From: a virus
Strand: one strand, 5' to 3'
Length of the DNA: 36,162 bases
Virus record (IMG/VR): IMGVR_UViG_3300014325_000030
Span: 1 to 36,162 of that record
This document shows positions 2,159-32,544 of this stretch, piece by piece. Each line of letters begins with the position of its first letter. The first letter of the stretch is position 1. The translations under genes were made by a program, and so were the position numbers. Under the pieces are notes generated by a model. It was not told where the DNA came from and made no database searches. It was given only the letters and a program-made list of their open reading frames with translations.

Positions 2159-3658
2159 TTAGTTGATCAACTCATAGCCAAAGACGGTGTTCCCGCCGGT
2201 GGCCGAAATGGTGCCGCCCGAGTTGTTGATCGCCAGCAGCGCGACGCGTTCTGCCAGCGAGCCGGAGACGTCGGTGTACTTGATCATCCCGCGCACCGTC
2301 GTCGTCGTGTTGCATTGCAGGCTGCCGATATACCGGCTGTTCTTGCGGTTCGCCGCCGTGAACGTGCCTTCCGTGCCGGTGGCGCCATCGGTGAAACTGC
2401 CCGAGGTGAACGCTTCCGCGAGGTAGAAGTCCACCAGGAGCGTGCTGCCCGCGGCGCCGAGGGTTTCGAACAGGAACTGGATCTCGGCGGCGCCGCCGGT
2501 GGCGATGGCCGCCGACTGCCACCCACTGGTATTGGTCAGCCCGGCAAAGTTCGTCGTCGTCAGCGTGACGACGGCGCCGTAGAAGAATTTGCGCGCCATC
2601 GTGACGAGAAAGGCGCCCGCGGTGATCGACTGATAGATCAACCCGCGCAGGTACTGCTGAATCGTGCCAGTGGCGTCGGTGATGACTTTCGCGCCGGTCG
2701 TCGCGCCGAGGGTGGCCACGGCGGGATCGTCGGACGCGAGCGTGTGGCGGATGGCCGCGGCCGCGGTCCCGGCCCCCAGCGCGTTGGCGAAAAACGTCAC
2801 CAACCCGCGCAGGTACTGCTGGATCGTGCCGGTGGCGTCGGTGACGACTTTCGCGCCCGTGGTCACGCCGGCGGCCGCGGCCGTCGCGGCGGTCGAGGTG
2901 TCGATCGTGGCGGCGTGGCCGGCTTCCAGCGCAAAGCCGGTGATCGCGGCCGGTGGGGTCAGCGCGGTGACCTGGATCGCCGTCAGCACGACGGGCGTGG
3001 ACGCCGCGGCGAGCGCCTGGCCTTGGCTGGGGATCTTGTCGACGTCGGTCTTGATCGCATCGAGCGCCGTCTGCGCCGTGTCCTGCTTGGCCGACGTCGC
3101 AAAGCCGGTGATCGCCGCCGGCGGCGTCAGCGCCGCGGCCTGAATCGCCGTCAGGACCACCGGCGTCGAGGCCGCGGCGAGCGCCTGCCCTTGGCTGGGA
3201 ATCTTGTCGACGTCGACCTTGATCGCATCGATCGCGGTCTGCAGGGTGGCCTGCGCGGCCGCGGTGGCCAGCGTGGCCGACGTGATCGGCAGCGCGTCGA
3301 CGTGCTTGACGTAGACCTCGCCCTTCGCGGTCGCGTTGACGGTGATAACGTCGCCATCGTCCGAGACTTCGGACACGAGCGCGTCGCGCCGCCGCGCGTT
3401 CCCGATCGGCCCGACCGGATTCGCCACCGCCGGGGTGTCTTCGGTGTACTCCGTACCGCCTCCTCCGCCGCCGCCCCCGAGGGCGGCCCAGCGCGCGCCA
3501 TTGGTCGCCGTCGAGTCGCGCACGATCGCATCGCCGTCGGTGCCGCCGTCGAATTTCCGCGCGGCGTTCCACGCGTTCGGGCCGACCTTGGTCGGGCTCC
3601 CGGTATCGGGCACGGTCGACACAAACGCCGGCGTGACGACGACGTCGTCGGCGCTCAT
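2159..3658 (-). CDS. Tail-fibre-like protein with internal repeats
   Basis: The 499-residue protein starts at the ATG at 3658, which overlaps the TGA of the gp4-like gene (ATGA) with GGTGGA before it. Residues about 60-75 hold a poly-Gly linker. The middle consists of two near-identical blocks (DVDKIPSQGQALAAASTPVV, then ITGFA) and two further copies of a TTGAKV.TDATGTIQQYLRGL block. The C-terminal third is beta-rich (AAEIQFLFETLGAAGSTLLV). Repeats followed by a unique C-terminal domain are typical of trimeric phage fibres. The adjacent LamG-like gene supports a receptor-binding or baseplate role, but this is inferred from architecture alone. Confidence 0.7.
   Translation of the reverse strand: MSADDVVVTPAFVSTVPDTGSPTKVGPNAWNAARKFDGGTDGDAIVRDSTATNGARWAALGGGGGGGGTEYTEDTPAVANPVGPIGNARRRDALVSEVSDDGDVITVNATAKGEVYVKHVDALPITSATLATAAAQATLQTAIDAIKVDVDKIPSQGQALAAASTPVVLTAIQAAALTPPAAITGFATSAKQDTAQTALDAIKTDVDKIPSQGQALAAASTPVVLTAIQVTALTPPAAITGFALEAGHAATIDTSTAATAAAAGVTTGAKVVTDATGTIQQYLRGLVTFFANALGAGTAAAAIRHTLASDDPAVATLGATTGAKVITDATGTIQQYLRGLIYQSITAGAFLVTMARKFFYGAVVTLTTTNFAGLTNTSGWQSAAIATGGAAEIQFLFETLGAAGSTLLVDFYLAEAFTSGSFTDGATGTEGTFTAANRKNSRYIGSLQCNTTTTVRGMIKYTDVSGSLAERVALLAINNSGGTISATGGNTVFGYELIN
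2637..3243. repeat. In-frame DNA repeats inside the fibre-like gene
   Basis: Two kinds of direct repeat lie in the gene. About 72 bases starting at 2637 recur 162 bases later at 2799. About 145 bases starting at 2931 recur 168 bases later at 3099. Both periods are multiples of three, so the repeats expand the protein in frame (54 and 56 residues). They are the likely source of length variation in the fibre. Confidence 0.8.
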
Positions 3659-4401
3659 TCCACCCACCCGGATCCAAAGCCGCCCGTCGTGCCGCCGCTC
3701 CAGGTGCCCGTGCGCGCGTCCCAGCGGCCGCCGGTCATCCCCGGCAGGCCCAGGCCCGCGGCCGAGAGGCTCGGGATCCGCAGGTTGTTGGCGAAGATGC
3801 GCGCCCGCGCCAGGCCCGCGCGGCGGATCTGGTTGGCGGTCAGCGTCGCGTGAAAGGCATCCACGCAGGCCTCCATCACGGTCAACTCGAGCGCCGACTG
3901 GTAGCCCGGCGGCAGCACGAGCGAGGCGGTGTGGAGCACCGACCCCAGCACCCAGCGCGTCAGCAGCAGCACGTCGAGCCCGGCCGTGGGCGCGCCACTG
4001 GCAAACGACAGCGCGCCATCCGGGACCTCCGCGGCGTAGTAGGCGCCGGCGCCGCCGGTGGCCTGGCGCGCGAGCCACCAGCGCGGATCGTCGGACACGT
4101 CGATGATGGTGAAGACGCCCGAGGACAGCGCGACCGCGAGGCCGTCCACCTTCACCGGGCGGACCGGCAGCACCCAGGTGCCCGTGGGGCCGATGGTGTG
4201 CGGCTGGATCGCCTGCGTGGTGAACGGCGTGACGACGCCGGCGACCGACGTCTGCACGTCCGCGCTCCAGTCGTCGAGCACGCCGTTGATCGCGTCCAGG
4301 ACGACGATCGCGTCGGCCGGCTTGACGGGTTCCCCCGCGCCGACCACCGCGAGGCCGTCAACCAGGACGTGTCGAATGATCGTCGCGACCGAGACCGCCA
4401 T
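3655..4401 (-). CDS. P22 gp4-like head-to-tail adaptor
   Basis: The 248-residue protein matches the P22 tail accessory factor gp4 pattern. An N-terminal helix carries LDAINGVLDDWSADVQT. It is followed by the IQPHTIGPTGTWVLPVRPVKV segment typical of the family, DDPRWWLARQATG, and a C-terminal helical part with LVLPPGYQSALELTVMEACV. In P22, gp4 binds the portal ring after packaging and receives the tail needle and hub. The C-terminus here is extended by a Gly/Trp-rich tail (WDARTGTWSGGTTGGFGSGW). The gene sits downstream of coat and upstream of the fibre-like gene, as expected for a podovirus late operon. Confidence 0.85.
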   Translation of the reverse strand: MAVSVATIIRHVLVDGLAVVGAGEPVKPADAIVVLDAINGVLDDWSADVQTSVAGVVTPFTTQAIQPHTIGPTGTWVLPVRPVKVDGLAVALSSGVFTIIDVSDDPRWWLARQATGGAGAYYAAEVPDGALSFASGAPTAGLDVLLLTRWVLGSVLHTASLVLPPGYQSALELTVMEACVDAFHATLTANQIRRAGLARARIFANNLRIPSLSAAGLGLPGMTGGRWDARTGTWSGGTTGGFGSGWVE

Positions 4402-18462: not shown

Positions 18463-18692
18463 ACTTCACCGGCCGACGCGAACGCCTGAATGTAGGCGTC
18501 GACGCCGCTCTTACTCGGGACGATGCCCCGCGCGCGTCCCTCAGTGAGAATCTGATCGCAGCGAGCGACGTCGACGACCGGGCCGCCGGTGATCAAACCG
18601 TATTGCCGCGCGCTGTCGACGAGCAGGCAGGCCTCGGCTATGTTGACCGCGGTTTGCCACTCGGCCGGCGTCTTGGGGTCGCGGGTCTTCAT
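18459..18692 (-). CDS. Hypothetical early protein
   Basis: This 77-residue, mainly helical protein (WQTAVNIAEACLLVDSARQY, CDQILTEGRARGIVPSKSGV) overlaps the J-domain gene upstream by ATGA and the 58-residue gene downstream. The PSKSGVDAYIQAF end is regular. The function is unknown. Its place next to a J-domain gene may mean a shared role in early takeover. Confidence 0.6.
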   Translation of the reverse strand: MKTRDPKTPAEWQTAVNIAEACLLVDSARQYGLITGGPVVDVARCDQILTEGRARGIVPSKSGVDAYIQAFASAGEV

Positions 18693-19390
18693 GGCAGGGG
18701 CGCCTCGGTTTTGAAATACGCGCGGGCCGCGTCGCGGGCCAGGTTGAGCCGCACGACGGCGTCATGGCTGCCGCCGTTGTCGGGGTGTCGCTGTTTCAAG
18801 AGCGCGCGGTACCGCGCCTCGACGACCTCGAGGGTGATCGGATGGTCGCCGGGTTTGAAGTCCATTTCCGCGCGCCAGTCGCCGCCCTGCGTGCCGCCGA
18901 CGGCCGGGAGCGCCGCATAGCCGGCAAACGCCTGATTGAGATCCCCGATGCCGTAGCGTTCGATCCGGCGCAGCGCGTCGATGTGTTGCGCGATCGCCGC
19001 GATGTTGTCGGCGACGCGCGTCCACTTGTCGCAGGCCAGGACGCGCGTCTGGCCGTTGAGGGTGAAATACACCGCGGCGCCGACGTCGGTCGGTTCTCCG
19101 CGATCCGATCGGGGCGTGCCGTCGAGGCGCAGCTGCAGGCTCGTGCTCAGTTTCGCGTCCTCGGCGCCCAGCCGATCAAGTTCGGCCTCGAGCCGGGCGG
19201 CGGCGTCGGCGGCTGAGAGGGGCGCTTTACTTTTCCGCGTCTTGGTTTCCGGCGGGCGTCCGTCGTAGTGGCGCTCGACGTACGACTTTTCGATCGTCTT
19301 CCCGAAGTCGGCGCGCTGCCGCTCGCTCGCGGGCGTGCGCGTCCAGCCGAGTGGCCAGGAGAGCGGATACCGTCGGACGGTGTCACTCAC
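18689..19390 (-). CDS. Phage J-domain (DnaJ-like) protein
   Basis: The 233-residue protein ends in a J-domain core: helix RYRALLKQRHPDNGG with the HPD triad at residues 202-204, then DAVVRLNLARDAARAYF. The HPD loop is what stimulates Hsp70 (DnaK) ATPase. The N-terminal 60 residues (YPLSWPLGWTRTPASERQRA) form a motif seen in a phage family of J-domain proteins. The middle has a small beta/alpha part. It likely recruits host DnaK, perhaps for replication initiation or capsid assembly. The first 40 residues and the C-terminal J-domain are the reliable parts. Confidence 0.82.
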   Translation of the reverse strand: MSDTVRRYPLSWPLGWTRTPASERQRADFGKTIEKSYVERHYDGRPPETKTRKSKAPLSAADAAARLEAELDRLGAEDAKLSTSLQLRLDGTPRSDRGEPTDVGAAVYFTLNGQTRVLACDKWTRVADNIAAIAQHIDALRRIERYGIGDLNQAFAGYAALPAVGGTQGGDWRAEMDFKPGDHPITLEVVEARYRALLKQRHPDNGGSHDAVVRLNLARDAARAYFKTEAPLP

Positions 19391-19901: not shown

Positions 19902-20059
19902 CGTCTCCCCCTGCGATGCACGCGGCGCCGGAGTCTCGGATGGATCCAGGGCGTCGACCAGTACACGCGGTGCGCGGGGACCGTCCAGCACAGCGCGCGG
20001 CCGTTGACCAGGCGGCTGTAGACGGCGCGGCTGATGTCGATCCGGTGATAGTGGGTCAT
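19898..20059 (-). CDS. Small basic protein after initiator gene
   Basis: The 53-residue protein starts at the ATG overlapping the preceding frame's TGA (ATGA). It begins MTHYHRIDISRAVYSRLVNG and ends in an Arg/His-rich tail (HPRLRRRVHRRGRR). Strong positive charge suggests nucleic-acid binding. Its own stop overlaps the next ATG. Confidence 0.5.
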   Translation of the reverse strand: MTHYHRIDISRAVYSRLVNGRALCWTVPAHRVYWSTPWIHPRLRRRVHRRGRR

Positions 20060-20991
20060 CCGGTTTTTCTCCCCTGCTCGAGCCCGCGGCGCAGCGCGTC
20101 GGCGAGTTGGCCCCATTGCGGCGTCGGACGTTCAGCCGGTTTCGCGCCGACCGGCGTGTTCACATCCGCGAGGAGCCCGAGGCCCGGTTGCGTTGGTCCC
20201 ATGAGCGCGCGGGGTCGCTCAGGGCTTTCAGCGCCCGCAGGATCTGGTCCGGGTCGTAGTGAAACCCGAGCGCTAGGTGCCGGACCTTGATCGCTTCGAG
20301 CCGACTGCTGTAGTCCGCTTCCACGGTCGGCAAGGTCTGGATGATGACCACCGTCTGCGCAAAGGTCGGGTGCTGGAGCGGCTGATTGCGGCGCATCGGC
20401 GTCCTCGCGGGTTTCGTCGTCGGGGTGTTCGAACAACCCGGCGCGCAGCGCGGGTGCACTTGGGATCGGTTCTTGTACTGGGGATCTGTACGTACTGGGG
20501 ATCGGGGTGCCACTGGTGGCACTCAGATCGCGCGGTTGGGTGTCAACGGTGGCACTCAAATCGACGCCTTGGGTGCCACGGGTGGCACTCAACTGCGTGC
20601 CACGGGTGTCACTCAATTGAGTGCCACGGTTGACACTCAAATTTTTGTCACCCTGTGGAAAAGTCGTAGCCACCCCCCCGACCACCTTCGGCACCATCCA
20701 ATGCGGCGCGAGCCGATCGATCGCGATATCCCGCGCCGTCGCGTGGCGATGATGCCGCGTCCCAGTAATCCAGCCGCCGGCTTCCAAGCGCTGCAGCGAC
20801 CGGAGCACCGTCCGCCGCGGGAGTTCGGCGCGGGCACAGAGTTTCTTGACCGACACCCGCGCGCCCTTCCCGGTCTCGAAATTCGCGAAGGTCGAGAGGG
20901 CGCCGAGCACGAGCTTGTCGGTCGCGCAATGAAACCCCGTCGTCCACGTGATGCGCTCGGGCACCGACGCGTAGCCGCGATCGCCACTCAT
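20056..20991 (-). CDS. Replication initiator, O-like, with internal origin
   Basis: The frame is 311 residues. Residues about 15-90 form a winged helix of the phage replication-protein type (TDKLVLGALSTFANF, RVSVKKLCARAELPRRTVLR, SLQRLEAGGWITGTRHHRHA). The linker that follows is encoded by the iterons (repeats of LSATRGTQ). Beyond about residue 200 the frame looks like a shadow: low complexity, while another frame (20396-20160) has good coding character. So the true protein may end or shift frame there. By analogy with lambda O, the N-terminal domain would bind the iterons in its own gene and load the host helicase. A helicase loader was not found. Confidence 0.7.
   Translation of the reverse strand: MSGDRGYASVPERITWTTGFHCATDKLVLGALSTFANFETGKGARVSVKKLCARAELPRRTVLRSLQRLEAGGWITGTRHHRHATARDIAIDRLAPHWMVPKVVGGVATTFPQGDKNLSVNRGTQLSDTRGTQLSATRGTQGVDLSATVDTQPRDLSATSGTPIPSTYRSPVQEPIPSAPALRAGLFEHPDDETREDADAPQSAAPAPDLCADGGHHPDLADRGSGLQQSARSDQGPAPSARVSLRPGPDPAGAESPERPRALMGPTQPGLGLLADVNTPVGAKPAERPTPQWGQLADALRRGLEQGRKTG
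20160..20396 (-). CDS. Nested 78-residue protein or shifted C-terminus of initiator
   Basis: The ATG at 20396 follows GAGG by about 6-7 bases. The product has a convincing coding pattern: FAQTVVIIQTLPTVEADYSS, SRLEAIKVRHLALGFHYDPD, QILRALKALSDPARSWDQRN, with GC-rich third positions. The initiator frame, by contrast, is low-complexity over the same bases. It ends at TGA 20160, overlapping a GTG of a 34-residue continuation in the initiator frame (starts at 20163). Either it is a separate gene fully overlapping the initiator frame, or it is the real C-terminus reached by a +1 shift. No family is recognised. Confidence 0.6.
   Translation of the reverse strand: MRRNQPLQHPTFAQTVVIIQTLPTVEADYSSRLEAIKVRHLALGFHYDPDQILRALKALSDPARSWDQRNRASGSSRM
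20505..20660. other. Putative replication origin with iterons and AT-rich tract
   Basis: Five copies of a GGTGNCACTCA-type iteron lie in one direction. Their ACTCA cores are at 20521, 20554, 20587, 20611 and 20635, spaced 33, 33, 24 and 24 bases. Related GTGCCAC half-sites lie between them, including a perfect 14-base palindrome CACTCAATTGAGTG (20610-20623). Right next to the last copy is an AT-rich tract (CAAATTTTTGTC, about 20638-20649). Iterons plus an unwinding tract inside the initiator gene is the lambdoid origin layout. Confidence 0.72.
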
Positions 20992-30219: not shown

Positions 30220-31635
30220 TCCTCGCGCAAAACCCTCTCGCGGCTGCCCTTCACCGCGCGCGATCTCGCTCTCGTCCTGGCGGGGCCGGTCCTCCTCTGG
30301 GCGGCGTGGCGGCATCTCCTGGCGTGGTACATCGTCCGGCGTCTGTCGTACAACGACTTCGCGCGGTTCTACGCCTCCGCGCAGGCGTGGCGCGCGGGCG
30401 GCTCGCTGTATGACTCGACCTGGGCGACCGTCGGGCTGGTGCGCGGCCAGGCGATCGCGTTCGTCAATCTGAACCCGCCGCACTTTGAGCTCCTCCTGCT
30501 GCCCCTCGCGCCGCTGCCGCTCGCATCCGCCTACGCCGTCTGGGCCCTGCTGAACGTCGCGGGGTTTGCCGTGGCGGCCGGGATCGTCGTCCGGCGGCTC
30601 CAGCTGCGGCTCTCGGGCGGGCCGCTGCTCCTCGCGATCGGCGCGACGCTGGCCGCGACGCCGGTCACCGGCTGGGCGGCGTCGGCGCAGGTGACGGGCC
30701 TGGTCGCCGCGCTGTTCGCGTGGATCTGGCTCGCGCTCGAGGATCGTCGCTGGTCGCGCGCCGCTGTCGGGATCGGGATCGCGTGGAGTCTCAAGCTCCT
30801 GTTTGCGCCGGCGGTGATCTGGCTGCTCTGGCGCCGGCAGTACCGCGCGGCGGCGATCGCAGTCGTGACGGGCTTGAGCTGCTTTGCCGTCGGGCTCGCG
30901 GTGTTCGGCTGGCCGGAGCATCTCGCCTGGCTGCACGCGCTGTCCTCGGTGACCTGGGGCTGGTACTCGGTGAATAGTGCGCTGGCCGCGATTCCGGCGC
31001 GGATCGTCTACATGCGCAGCGGCGCGCTCGTGAATCCGCCCGGGCTGCCGGCCGCGACGATCCTCGGCCTGGCGATCGCGGCGCCGGTCGCGCTCGTCGG
31101 GACGTGGCGCGCGGCGACCGATCCCGACGCGTCGCGCGGCTGGCTGCTGTTGCTGCTGACGTGCCTGTTGTGTTTCCCGGCGTCGTGGATCGAGTACTGG
31201 GTCGTGCTCGGGCCGCCGGCGATCGCGTGTTGGCAGGCGCGCACGGTCCGGCGGCCGACGCTCTGCGCGGCGCCGGCGTGGTGGGTGCAAGCGTCGTGGA
31301 TCTATCCGTACACGTCAATGCTCGAGGCGGTCACCCTGGGGTCGGTCTATACGTGGTGTCTGCTGGTGTGGTGGATCGGCGTCGCGTGGCGATCAGCGCC
31401 CGTCGTCGCGCCCGCGCGGCCGATCGCGCCGCTGATGCTCCCCGACAAACATCTGGCCGCGCGCATCGTCGAGGTACTCCCGCGCGGCCTGGCGACACCG
31501 GCGGATCGCCTGGTCGGTGTCGTGGTCGAACCCCTGCAGGCTGTCGGGCCAGATCTGCTGTTGCACGCCGTTGGCGGTACTGGGGAGCGCGGCGAGCACG
31601 AAAAAGTCAAACCCTTGATCCGGCATCGCGAGTAG
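30220..31635 (+). CDS. GT87-like membrane glycosyltransferase, start uncertain
   Basis: The open frame of 472 codons contains NDFARFYASAQAWRAGGSLY then the NPPHFELLLLPLA motif typical of GT87 (DUF2029) mannosyl/arabinosyl-type transferases. About ten hydrophobic segments follow. The Asp in NDF and the NPPH motif are the usual family marks. The first canonical start (GTG 30439) would remove the Asp motif; upstream only CTG (30244) exists. A frame change in the AAAA run near 30230 could join it to a GTG at 30194. The 3' part (from about 31393) overlaps a minus-strand gene. Likely role: adding sugar to host envelope or phage glycan (lysogenic conversion). Confidence 0.65.
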   Translation, partial: SSRKTLSRLPFTARDLALVLAGPVLLWAAWRHLLAWYIVRRLSYNDFARFYASAQAWRAGGSLYDSTWATVGLVRGQAIAFVNLNPPHFELLLLPLAPLPLASAYAVWALLNVAGFAVAAGIVVRRLQLRLSGGPLLLAIGATLAATPVTGWAASAQVTGLVAALFAWIWLALEDRRWSRAAVGIGIAWSLKLLFAPAVIWLLWRRQYRAAAIAVVTGLSCFAVGLAVFGWPEHLAWLHALSSVTWGWYSVNSALAAIPARIVYMRSGALVNPPGLPAATILGLAIAAPVALVGTWRAATDPDASRGWLLLLLTCLLCFPASWIEYWVVLGPPAIACWQARTVRRPTLCAAPAWWVQASWIYPYTSMLEAVTLGSVYTWCLLVWWIGVAWRSAPVVAPARPIAPLMLPDKHLAARIVEVLPRGLATPADRLVGVVVEPLQAVGPDLLLHAVGGTGERGEHEKVKPLIRHRE

Positions 31636-31668
31636 CGCGGCGAGCAGGTGCCGGCGGCGTTTCTTCAT
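31393..31668 (-). CDS. Small hypothetical protein, end of late operon 2
   Basis: The 91-residue protein (begins MKKRRRHLLAALLAMPDQGF, then DFFVLAALPSTANGVQQQIW) has helical segments and a basic tail. Its codons have GC-rich third positions, and its start overlaps the upstream gene by ATGA. It overlaps the 3' end of the glycosyltransferase frame on the other strand by 243 bases; at least one end is probably shorter in reality. No family is recognised. Confidence 0.6.
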   Translation of the reverse strand: MKKRRRHLLAALLAMPDQGFDFFVLAALPSTANGVQQQIWPDSLQGFDHDTDQAIRRCRQAAREYLDDARGQMFVGEHQRRDRPRGRDDGR

Positions 31669-31895
31669 GCCCAGCGATCCGTGCGCCCGATCGGCTCGGG
31701 CAGTTTGACGACCTGATCCGCGTACGCGTTGAAGTAATCGATCGGGACCGCGACGGCGCGCCGCTCGTTGGCGCGGATCCGCACCTGGACAAAACAGGTG
31801 GCCTCGTCGATCGCCGAAATCGTGCAGTCCACCGTCACCCGATCACCCAGGCGCAGCGCGACGCCGTGCCGATCGACGCAGCGGGCGCGGCTCAT
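31665..31895 (-). CDS. Small beta-rich hypothetical protein
   Basis: This 76-residue protein starts at the ATG overlapping the PAP2 stop (ATGA). GVALRLGDRVTVDCTISAID and CFVQVRIRANERRAVAVPID suggest a small SH3- or OB-like barrel. A helical end carries NAYADQVVKLPEPI. The first residues (MSRARCVDRH) are basic. Its own stop overlaps the next gene. Function unknown. Confidence 0.65.
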   Translation of the reverse strand: MSRARCVDRHGVALRLGDRVTVDCTISAIDEATCFVQVRIRANERRAVAVPIDYFNAYADQVVKLPEPIGRTDRWA

Positions 31896-32371
31896 GCCCC
31901 ACACCGCAGCAGATGCCCGGCGCCCTCGGCCGCGATCCCGAGCAGCGCGCCGGTGAGGACCTGCGTCGGGGTGTGGCGGTGCGCCGTCGTCCGCAGGATC
32001 GCCGTCGACCAGGTGAAGCCGACGCCGAGCCGCCAGCTCGAGGCAAACCCGATCGTGCTGTTCATGGTGTGGCCGGACGGTTCGCCGTCGGGTGTGCAGC
32101 CGAAGCAGGGCCGCGGCGAGACGATGAAATGCTTGAGGGTGATCACGGCGACATTGCCAACGGCTTCACTGATCGCGAGCTGCCCGAGCTTGCACGCGCG
32201 GTGCGGCGACCGCCAGGCGGCGATCGCGGCGACCGTCGGATTGACGAGCGCCGTGCCGTAGCTCAGACGATCGGCCCAGGGTTCGACCGGCGGCGGCTGC
32301 GCCTGGACGACGGGCGCGAACAGGAGCAGCGCGAGTAGGACCGCCGATATACGTTTGACGGTATATCGCAT
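31892..32371 (-). CDS. Exported PAP2-family phosphatase
   Basis: The 159-residue protein starts at ATG 32371 with a signal peptide (MRYTVKRISAVLLALLLFAP, cut after VQA). The PAP2 motifs are present: KHFIVSPRP (Lys80, Arg87), EPSGH (Ser99-His101) and RTTAHRHTPTQ (Arg127, His133). The final Asp that normally helps the nucleophilic His is Gln137. PAP2 enzymes remove phosphate from lipid-linked carriers such as undecaprenyl pyrophosphate. Near the GT87-like gene, a role in envelope sugar or peptidoglycan lipid metabolism is possible; activity is uncertain because of the Gln. Confidence 0.8.
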   Translation of the reverse strand: MRYTVKRISAVLLALLLFAPVVQAQPPPVEPWADRLSYGTALVNPTVAAIAAWRSPHRACKLGQLAISEAVGNVAVITLKHFIVSPRPCFGCTPDGEPSGHTMNSTIGFASSWRLGVGFTWSTAILRTTAHRHTPTQVLTGALLGIAAEGAGHLLRCGA

Positions 32372-32544
32372 CAGTAGCTCGAGCGGTTCCACGCGTCGAC
32401 CATCATCGGGACGAGCGGATCGGGGCAGCCCGCGCGACTCTTCATGTTGTCGACAAAGGGCGGTGACGGCGGTCCGCCCTGCCACGGACGGAGCGGCGTG
32501 TCTGAGACGTCTGCGACAGGCGTCGGACTCGAGTTCGTCGTCAT
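32371..32544 (-). CDS. 57-residue protein with palindrome copy F
   Basis: It begins MTTNSSPTPVADVSDTPLRP and ends in a Met/Trp-containing tail (MMVDAWNRSSY). ADVSDTP is coded by copy F of the dispersed palindrome (32498-32519). Its TGA overlaps the PAP2 ATG (TGATG), and its own ATG lies over the stop of the preceding gene. No family is recognised. Confidence 0.6.
   Translation of the reverse strand: MTTNSSPTPVADVSDTPLRPWQGGPPSPPFVDNMKSRAGCPDPLVPMMVDAWNRSSY
32498..32519. repeat. Dispersed 22-base palindrome, copy F
   Basis: GTGTCTGAGAC followed by GTCTGCGACAG. Coding (ADVSDT) in the 57-residue gene. About 3.6 kb from copies D and E. Confidence 0.6.

Follow-up and report, generated by a model that had tools for sequence, protein, structure and literature searches.

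The initiator gene and its iterons

The window analysed here is the virus record IMGVR_UViG_3300014325_000030 over its full length (positions 1-36,162; 36,162 bases). The description of this DNA as that of a P22-type phage is borne out by matches to P22_portal (E 3e-74) and P22_CoatProtein (E 1e-20), which are accompanied by a scaffold gene; a tyrosine integrase is also encoded, and the window shows no close sequence relation to database phages. Two other features of the record are a 168-bp tandem duplication (87% matches) at 2930-3242 within a long ORF (2159-4078), and GT87 glycosyltransferase and PAP2-like genes near its right part (30439-32485), which could be host flank or phage surface-modification genes.

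A 311-aa initiator is encoded on the minus strand at 20056-20991. Between 20991 and about 20450 the GC content by codon phase backs this frame; below that it is ambiguous until the last ~25 codons, which by eye resemble the C-termini of relatives. From about 20450 down to 20160 on the minus strand the phase signal leaves the initiator frame and follows the ORF at 20160-20522. The 79-aa product of this frame-B insert has no homologue in the relatives; a proposed homology to a small downstream gene of one relative (L007) was rejected, the two-sequence comparison giving E 0.03 and other comparisons no match. The switch could be due to a nested gene, to a frame switch or frameshift, or to two assembly indels, and the region concerned does not touch the iterons described below.

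The first ~100 residues of the initiator (20692-20991, minus strand) are predicted to form a winged-helix DNA-binding domain (AlphaFold, pLDDT 72). In a Foldseek search with this model the matches included winged helix-turn-helix (wHTH) proteins, among them the RepA_N structure 4pql (E 0.014) and TubR structures, the best being MarR/CodY-type regulators; none reached E 0.001. No RepA_N domain was matched by sequence in the window initiator, which therefore does not group with the RepA_N plasmid initiators. At the sequence level, the N-domains of the window and its relatives match PHROG replication-initiation and O-like families (best members: phrog_391, 5e-10; phrog_270, 6e-8; phrog_678, 8e-8), and the relation to O-like initiators is weak for the window's own domain alone (7e-5) and stronger for the best relatives.

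Five imperfect dyads of ~24 bp, of the form TTGAGTGCCAC-NN-GTGGCACTCAA (consensus TTGRGTGNCAC-NN-GTGGCACYCAA), occupy positions 20503-20640 in the linker-coding part of the gene, so that several inverted-repeat iterons of a size suited to an initiator lie between its N- and C-terminal parts. All are given on the minus strand: iteron 1, TTGAGTGTCAA-CC-GTGGCACTCAA (20617-20640); iteron 2, TTGAGTGACAC-CC-GTGGCACGCAG (20593-20616); iteron 3, TTGAGTGCCAC-CC-GTGGCACCCAA (20569-20592); iteron 4, TTGAGTGCCAC-CG-TTGACACCCAA (20536-20559); and iteron 5, CTGAGTGCCAC-CA-GTGGCACCCCG (20503-20526), whose right arm is degenerate and which adjoins a second repeat, motif 2. Their centres are 24, 24, 33 and 33 bp apart along the coding strand. 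Half-sites with one mismatch or fewer occur nowhere else in the 36-kb window.

The original prediction had placed five iterons with steps of 33, 33, 24 and 24 (window order) at 20505-20660, in the linker-coding part of a winged-helix initiator gene. A mechanical repeat search found five at this place, the array falls inside the initiator ORF and the N-domain is a predicted winged helix. The iteron was then given as GGTGNCACTCA, a real repeat that makes up only the right half of each ~24-bp unit; similarly, the 14-base palindrome that had been noted, CACTCAATTGAGTG, exists at 20611-20624, where it arises from two dyads meeting end to end and is no element of its own.

DNA symmetry and encoded peptide in five lineages

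All steps of the window array are multiples of 3 and the array is thus in frame, as would be expected if the repeated LSATRGTQ peptide alone mattered and the DNA repeat were incidental. In a null model that held the peptides fixed and redrew synonymous codons at their frequencies in the window (20,000 draws), the mean unit-to-unit identity came to 0.65 +/- 0.03, compared with an observed 0.80, and 23 +/- 2.6 dyad pairs were formed, compared with an observed 44/55; the observed value was reached in 0/20,000 draws in either case. Moreover, nearly every repeat copy contains TTG and AGT, codons that are rare in this genome (5% of Leu and 9% of Ser, respectively). Given the resampling result and these recurring rare codons, the repeat is kept as DNA: selection acts on the DNA and the LSATRGTQ peptide repeat is its passenger. 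The earlier statement that DNA and protein repeats are one and the same was right in that the dyads encode LSATRGTQ, but it was too strong, the peptide being a by-product.

Relatives were sought in IMG/VR, where a single-protein scan with the window N-domain returned none and a two-sequence profile was needed. The profile scan gave four other viral contigs (L045, L046, L047/L007 and L048) that share the initiator N-domain at 60-70% identity; a five-sequence profile scan of genomes had no match in 84,980 species. The P22-type portal of the window was found in only one of the four, L045 (68%), and the initiator with its sites therefore appears to occur in phages with different structural modules, some of these records possibly being incomplete. 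Anchoring the search on the neighbouring gene at 18689-19390 gave five further relatives (L002-L006), in which no homologue of the initiator was found.

Each of the four contigs carries four dyads at the equivalent place, one of those in L048 being degenerate. The dyads are uniform within each locus and different between loci: the unit is TTGAGTGCCAC-G-GTGGCACCCAA in L007, CTGAGCGCCAC-CG-GTGGCGCTCAA in L045, TTGACCGTCAC-GA-TTGACGGTCAA in L046 and TTGCGCGTCAC-GG-GTGACGCGCAA in L048, and iteron length across the lineages is 22-24 bp. Over 20 units from the five lineages, 5/10 arm pairs have changed on both sides. Paired cells make up 86.7%; sliding the partner by one to three bases lowers this to 22-39% and leaves hardly any double changes. 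Because units of the same locus are not independent of one another, the sample effectively consists of five lineages; the slide control retains this relatedness. Several of the paired arm changes are nonsynonymous (Ser to Thr, Ala to Val, Gly to Asp, Thr to Ala), and the peptide therefore follows the DNA. Across the homologues the encoded peptides are LSATRGTQ, LSATVAP, LSATGGAQ, LTVTIDGQ and LRVTGDAQ, and one dyad copy in L007 stands in a shifted reading frame and encodes FECHGGTQ. The proposed check of whether DNA repeats persist while codons change has thus been run on four homologues, and dyads were kept with differing peptides; the outcome that would have spoken against the prediction, a conserved peptide over scrambled DNA, is the opposite of what the homologues display. 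With peptides that differ between relatives exactly as DNA symmetry demands, rare codons that are fixed and frames that change, the reading in which only the peptide matters is effectively refuted, and we give it next to no weight.

Covariation alone cannot tell RNA pairing from DNA dyads, and the repeats might instead be hairpins in the initiator mRNA that control translation or frameshifting, a view to which the odd reading-frame switch downstream in the gene lends some colour. We consider this very improbable: dyad symmetry reaches the centre of each unit, leaving 0-2 spacer bases where an RNA loop would need more, the CA/TG pairs at the centre never vary, and the conservation of motif 2 is one of sequence, with no such pairing.

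Similar arrangements were also seen at other loci. A half-site pattern scan gave 38 matches, mostly unrelated repeat proteins or intergenic arrays. On a phage contig of 73% GC (L028:2541-2666, plus strand) an unrelated winged-helix protein has four GTGAGTGCCACTTTGGCAC dyads in its linker, spaced 54, 24 and 24, with a half-site nearly identical to that of the window. A remote homologue (40% over 77 aa), gp71 of Streptomyces phage TurkishDelight, is annotated only as an HTH protein and has CGTCACG-type repeats in its linker (L060:3318-3450), which probably mark, in a cultured phage, an embedded origin that has gone unannotated. In two further contigs (L017:4414-4484, minus strand; L032:1979-2049, plus strand) a terminase-small-subunit-like gene, with no match in Pfam, has GTCACTC-type repeats encoding an NVTP/NVTQ peptide; these are possibly packaging-site repeats lying within a gene, much as an origin can lie within that of an initiator. 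Finally, perfect palindromes, CCACTCAAGCTTGAGTGG, recur at ~31-bp steps with no long ORF across them at L023:3736-3803 and L043:4545-4612, another iteron- or operator-like array.

Flanking elements and the case for an origin

The second repeat, GATCCCCWGTACG (motif 2), which is absent from the original prediction, adjoins the last dyad in 5/5 contigs. In the window it is present on the minus strand as two copies of GATCCCCAGTAC (20492-20503 and 20475-20486) and a degenerate third, GATCCCAAGTGC (20456-20467); each contig has two or three copies of GATCCCCWGTAC(G), spaced 13-19 bp, and the distance from half-site to motif 2 is constant at 22-23 bases across all five. The twelve copies use codon phases 0, 1 and 2, even inside one gene, and motif 2 is therefore also kept as DNA. 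Unlike the iterons, it is almost unchanged between lineages. An IMG/VR scan with the motif matched exactly the four relatives; eight matches in cellular genomes were judged low-complexity or chance.

Domain searches for a DnaB_C helicase and an IstB/DnaC-type loader, with positive controls, found neither in the five records, some of which are possibly incomplete; these two domain types were the scope of the search. A tentative idea, which we rate well short of probable, is that a conserved host replication factor lands on motif 2 or unwinds the DNA there, and that these phages start replication without a helicase or loader of their own. If true, the origin would have two halves, one specific to the initiator and evolving fast, the other specific to the host and frozen, in a module that moves between unrelated phages.

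An AT-rich tract of modest strength does lie beside the iterons, where it had been predicted. The 40-mer of lowest stability next to the array, a candidate unwinding element on the N-terminal-coding side (20630-20669), is in the least stable 0.06% of window positions, and among separate sites of the window the 50 bp at 20615-20664 rank fourth in instability (z 3.2). Low-stability DNA of modest strength lies near the array in all five contigs, on a side that is not constant: the least stable stretch is on the motif 2 side in L045, L047 and L048 and on the opposite side in L046. The window's sole match to the consensus TTWTNCACA, the DnaA-box-like TTTTCCACA (20654-20662, minus strand), is 14 bp from the array, with 0.23 such matches expected in the whole window. 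An identical site inside the array of L048 is the only one in its 12.3 kb, and the other three relatives have no match to this consensus. The possible DnaA box beside the array was noticed post hoc and is suggestive only. Cumulative GC skew, which had been put forward as a check around 20.6 kb, gave no support for an origin: near 20.7 kb the curve reaches a local maximum where an origin calls for a minimum, and the relatives have no common pattern or switch. We rejected skew as uninformative.

We favor the interpretation, with a probability of roughly 80%, that the array is a phage replication origin embedded in its own initiator gene, of the lambda O/P22 gp18 type. Our reasoning for this is that: (i) there is DNA-level selection in a coding region, as judged from the codon-resampling null (0/20,000), the covariation, the use of several phases by motif 2 and the shifted L007 dyad; (ii) the N-domain is initiator-like in its PHROG matches, predicted winged helix and Foldseek wHTH matches; (iii) equal anatomy recurs across all five phage contigs, and just one contig besides the window has the same portal; (iv) low-stability DNA lies beside all five arrays and the sole DnaA-box-like site beside that of the window; and (v) there is published precedent in P22-like phages (PMC8022706) and in lambda and Stx phages (PMC7466680). 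Against it stand the GC skew, the lack of DnaB_C and IstB/DnaC matches, the weak scores of the window N-domain and the varying side of the low-stability DNA. The lambda O/ori layout of the original prediction is thus supported by the dyads, the covariation and the initiator-like N-domain and gains nothing from GC skew; that the origin would fire at the array is inferred from lambda O and P22-like phages.

Dyads are also the typical shape of operators, and the best fold matches of the N-domain are regulators, so that the winged-helix protein might regulate its own operon or silence an internal promoter while replication starts elsewhere. However, four to five tandem dyads deep in a gene, beside low-stability DNA and a second repeat, better fit an origin, and the relatives' N-domains match replication-initiation families; we regard the operator explanation as unlikely, and the two roles could coexist. 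A partition site or centromere of the TubR/ParB kind, with no origin, is an even weaker candidate than RNA hairpins. wHTH proteins such as TubR do bind iterons, and TubR was among the structural matches, but an integrase is present, the proteins scanned included no recognisable ParA or TubZ neighbour, and the family scores point to initiators.

The most likely scenario for an origin at the array is that initiator dimers would bind the five dyad iterons through the N-terminal winged-helix domain; any matching of iteron to recognition helix would rest on five lineages only. The bound dimers could wrap the dyads and build a nucleoprotein complex, which may strain and open an adjacent low-stability stretch, either at motif 2, at its fixed distance from the last iteron, or in the AT-rich 20630-20669 with the DnaA-box-like site. 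The C-terminal part might then bring in host helicase machinery. What motif 2 and the DnaA box do in this working model is guesswork.

Comparison with known origins

An origin inside the initiator gene is a textbook arrangement. In lambda and Stx phages the iterons are 19-bp imperfect inverted repeats in mid-gene, bound by O dimers and beside a low-stability region (PMC7466680). The window array shares with ori-lambda and the Stx origin this placement of inverted-repeat iterons beside low-stability DNA. It differs from lambda in iteron sequence, in a length of 22-24 bp, in the extra motif 2 that abuts the last iteron, in a most AT-rich stretch on the N-terminal-coding side and in that no P-type loader was recognised, the search covering DnaB_C and IstB/DnaC domains. 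P22-like phages have three distant O-like proteins, each with its own iterons in the coding region (PMC8022706). Like the gene 18 origins of P22 and phage L, the window combines P22-type virion genes with lineage-specific iterons within an O-like gene; unlike these phages, it has no DnaB-type gp12 helicase that we could find and, as noted, no close database relative.

SPP1 encodes a loader (gp39) and a helicase (gp40) of its own; no counterpart of either was recognised in the window phage, where the domains searched for were DnaB_C and IstB/DnaC. Direct repeats and an AT-rich element lie inside its origin-binding protein gene (gene 38, oriL; PMC6316719), and repeats plus an AT-rich element within the initiator gene are what the window has in common with it. 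In pSK41 the N-terminal domain binds four boxes located centrally in rep, and the linker encoded by the origin is dispensable as protein (PMC5703833). The central placement of the sites resembles that in this RepA_N replicon, which is a plasmid and belongs to another sequence family, with only the weak fold match to 4pql.

The arrangement itself is therefore already known from lambda, P22, phage L, SPP1 and pSK41; what is new is its occurrence in this family, with covarying arms, a second motif independent of reading frame and a possible DnaA box. Least expected were motif 2 and how clearly DNA symmetry is seen to dictate peptide in five lineages; the comparison cleanly illustrates a protein compelled to change with the DNA sites that its coding region overlaps. 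Compared with the known systems, the family allows iteron symmetry, initiator specificity and reading frame to be separated by comparison, and it makes available five cognate initiator-site pairs for tests of recognition rules, together with a second conserved origin element.
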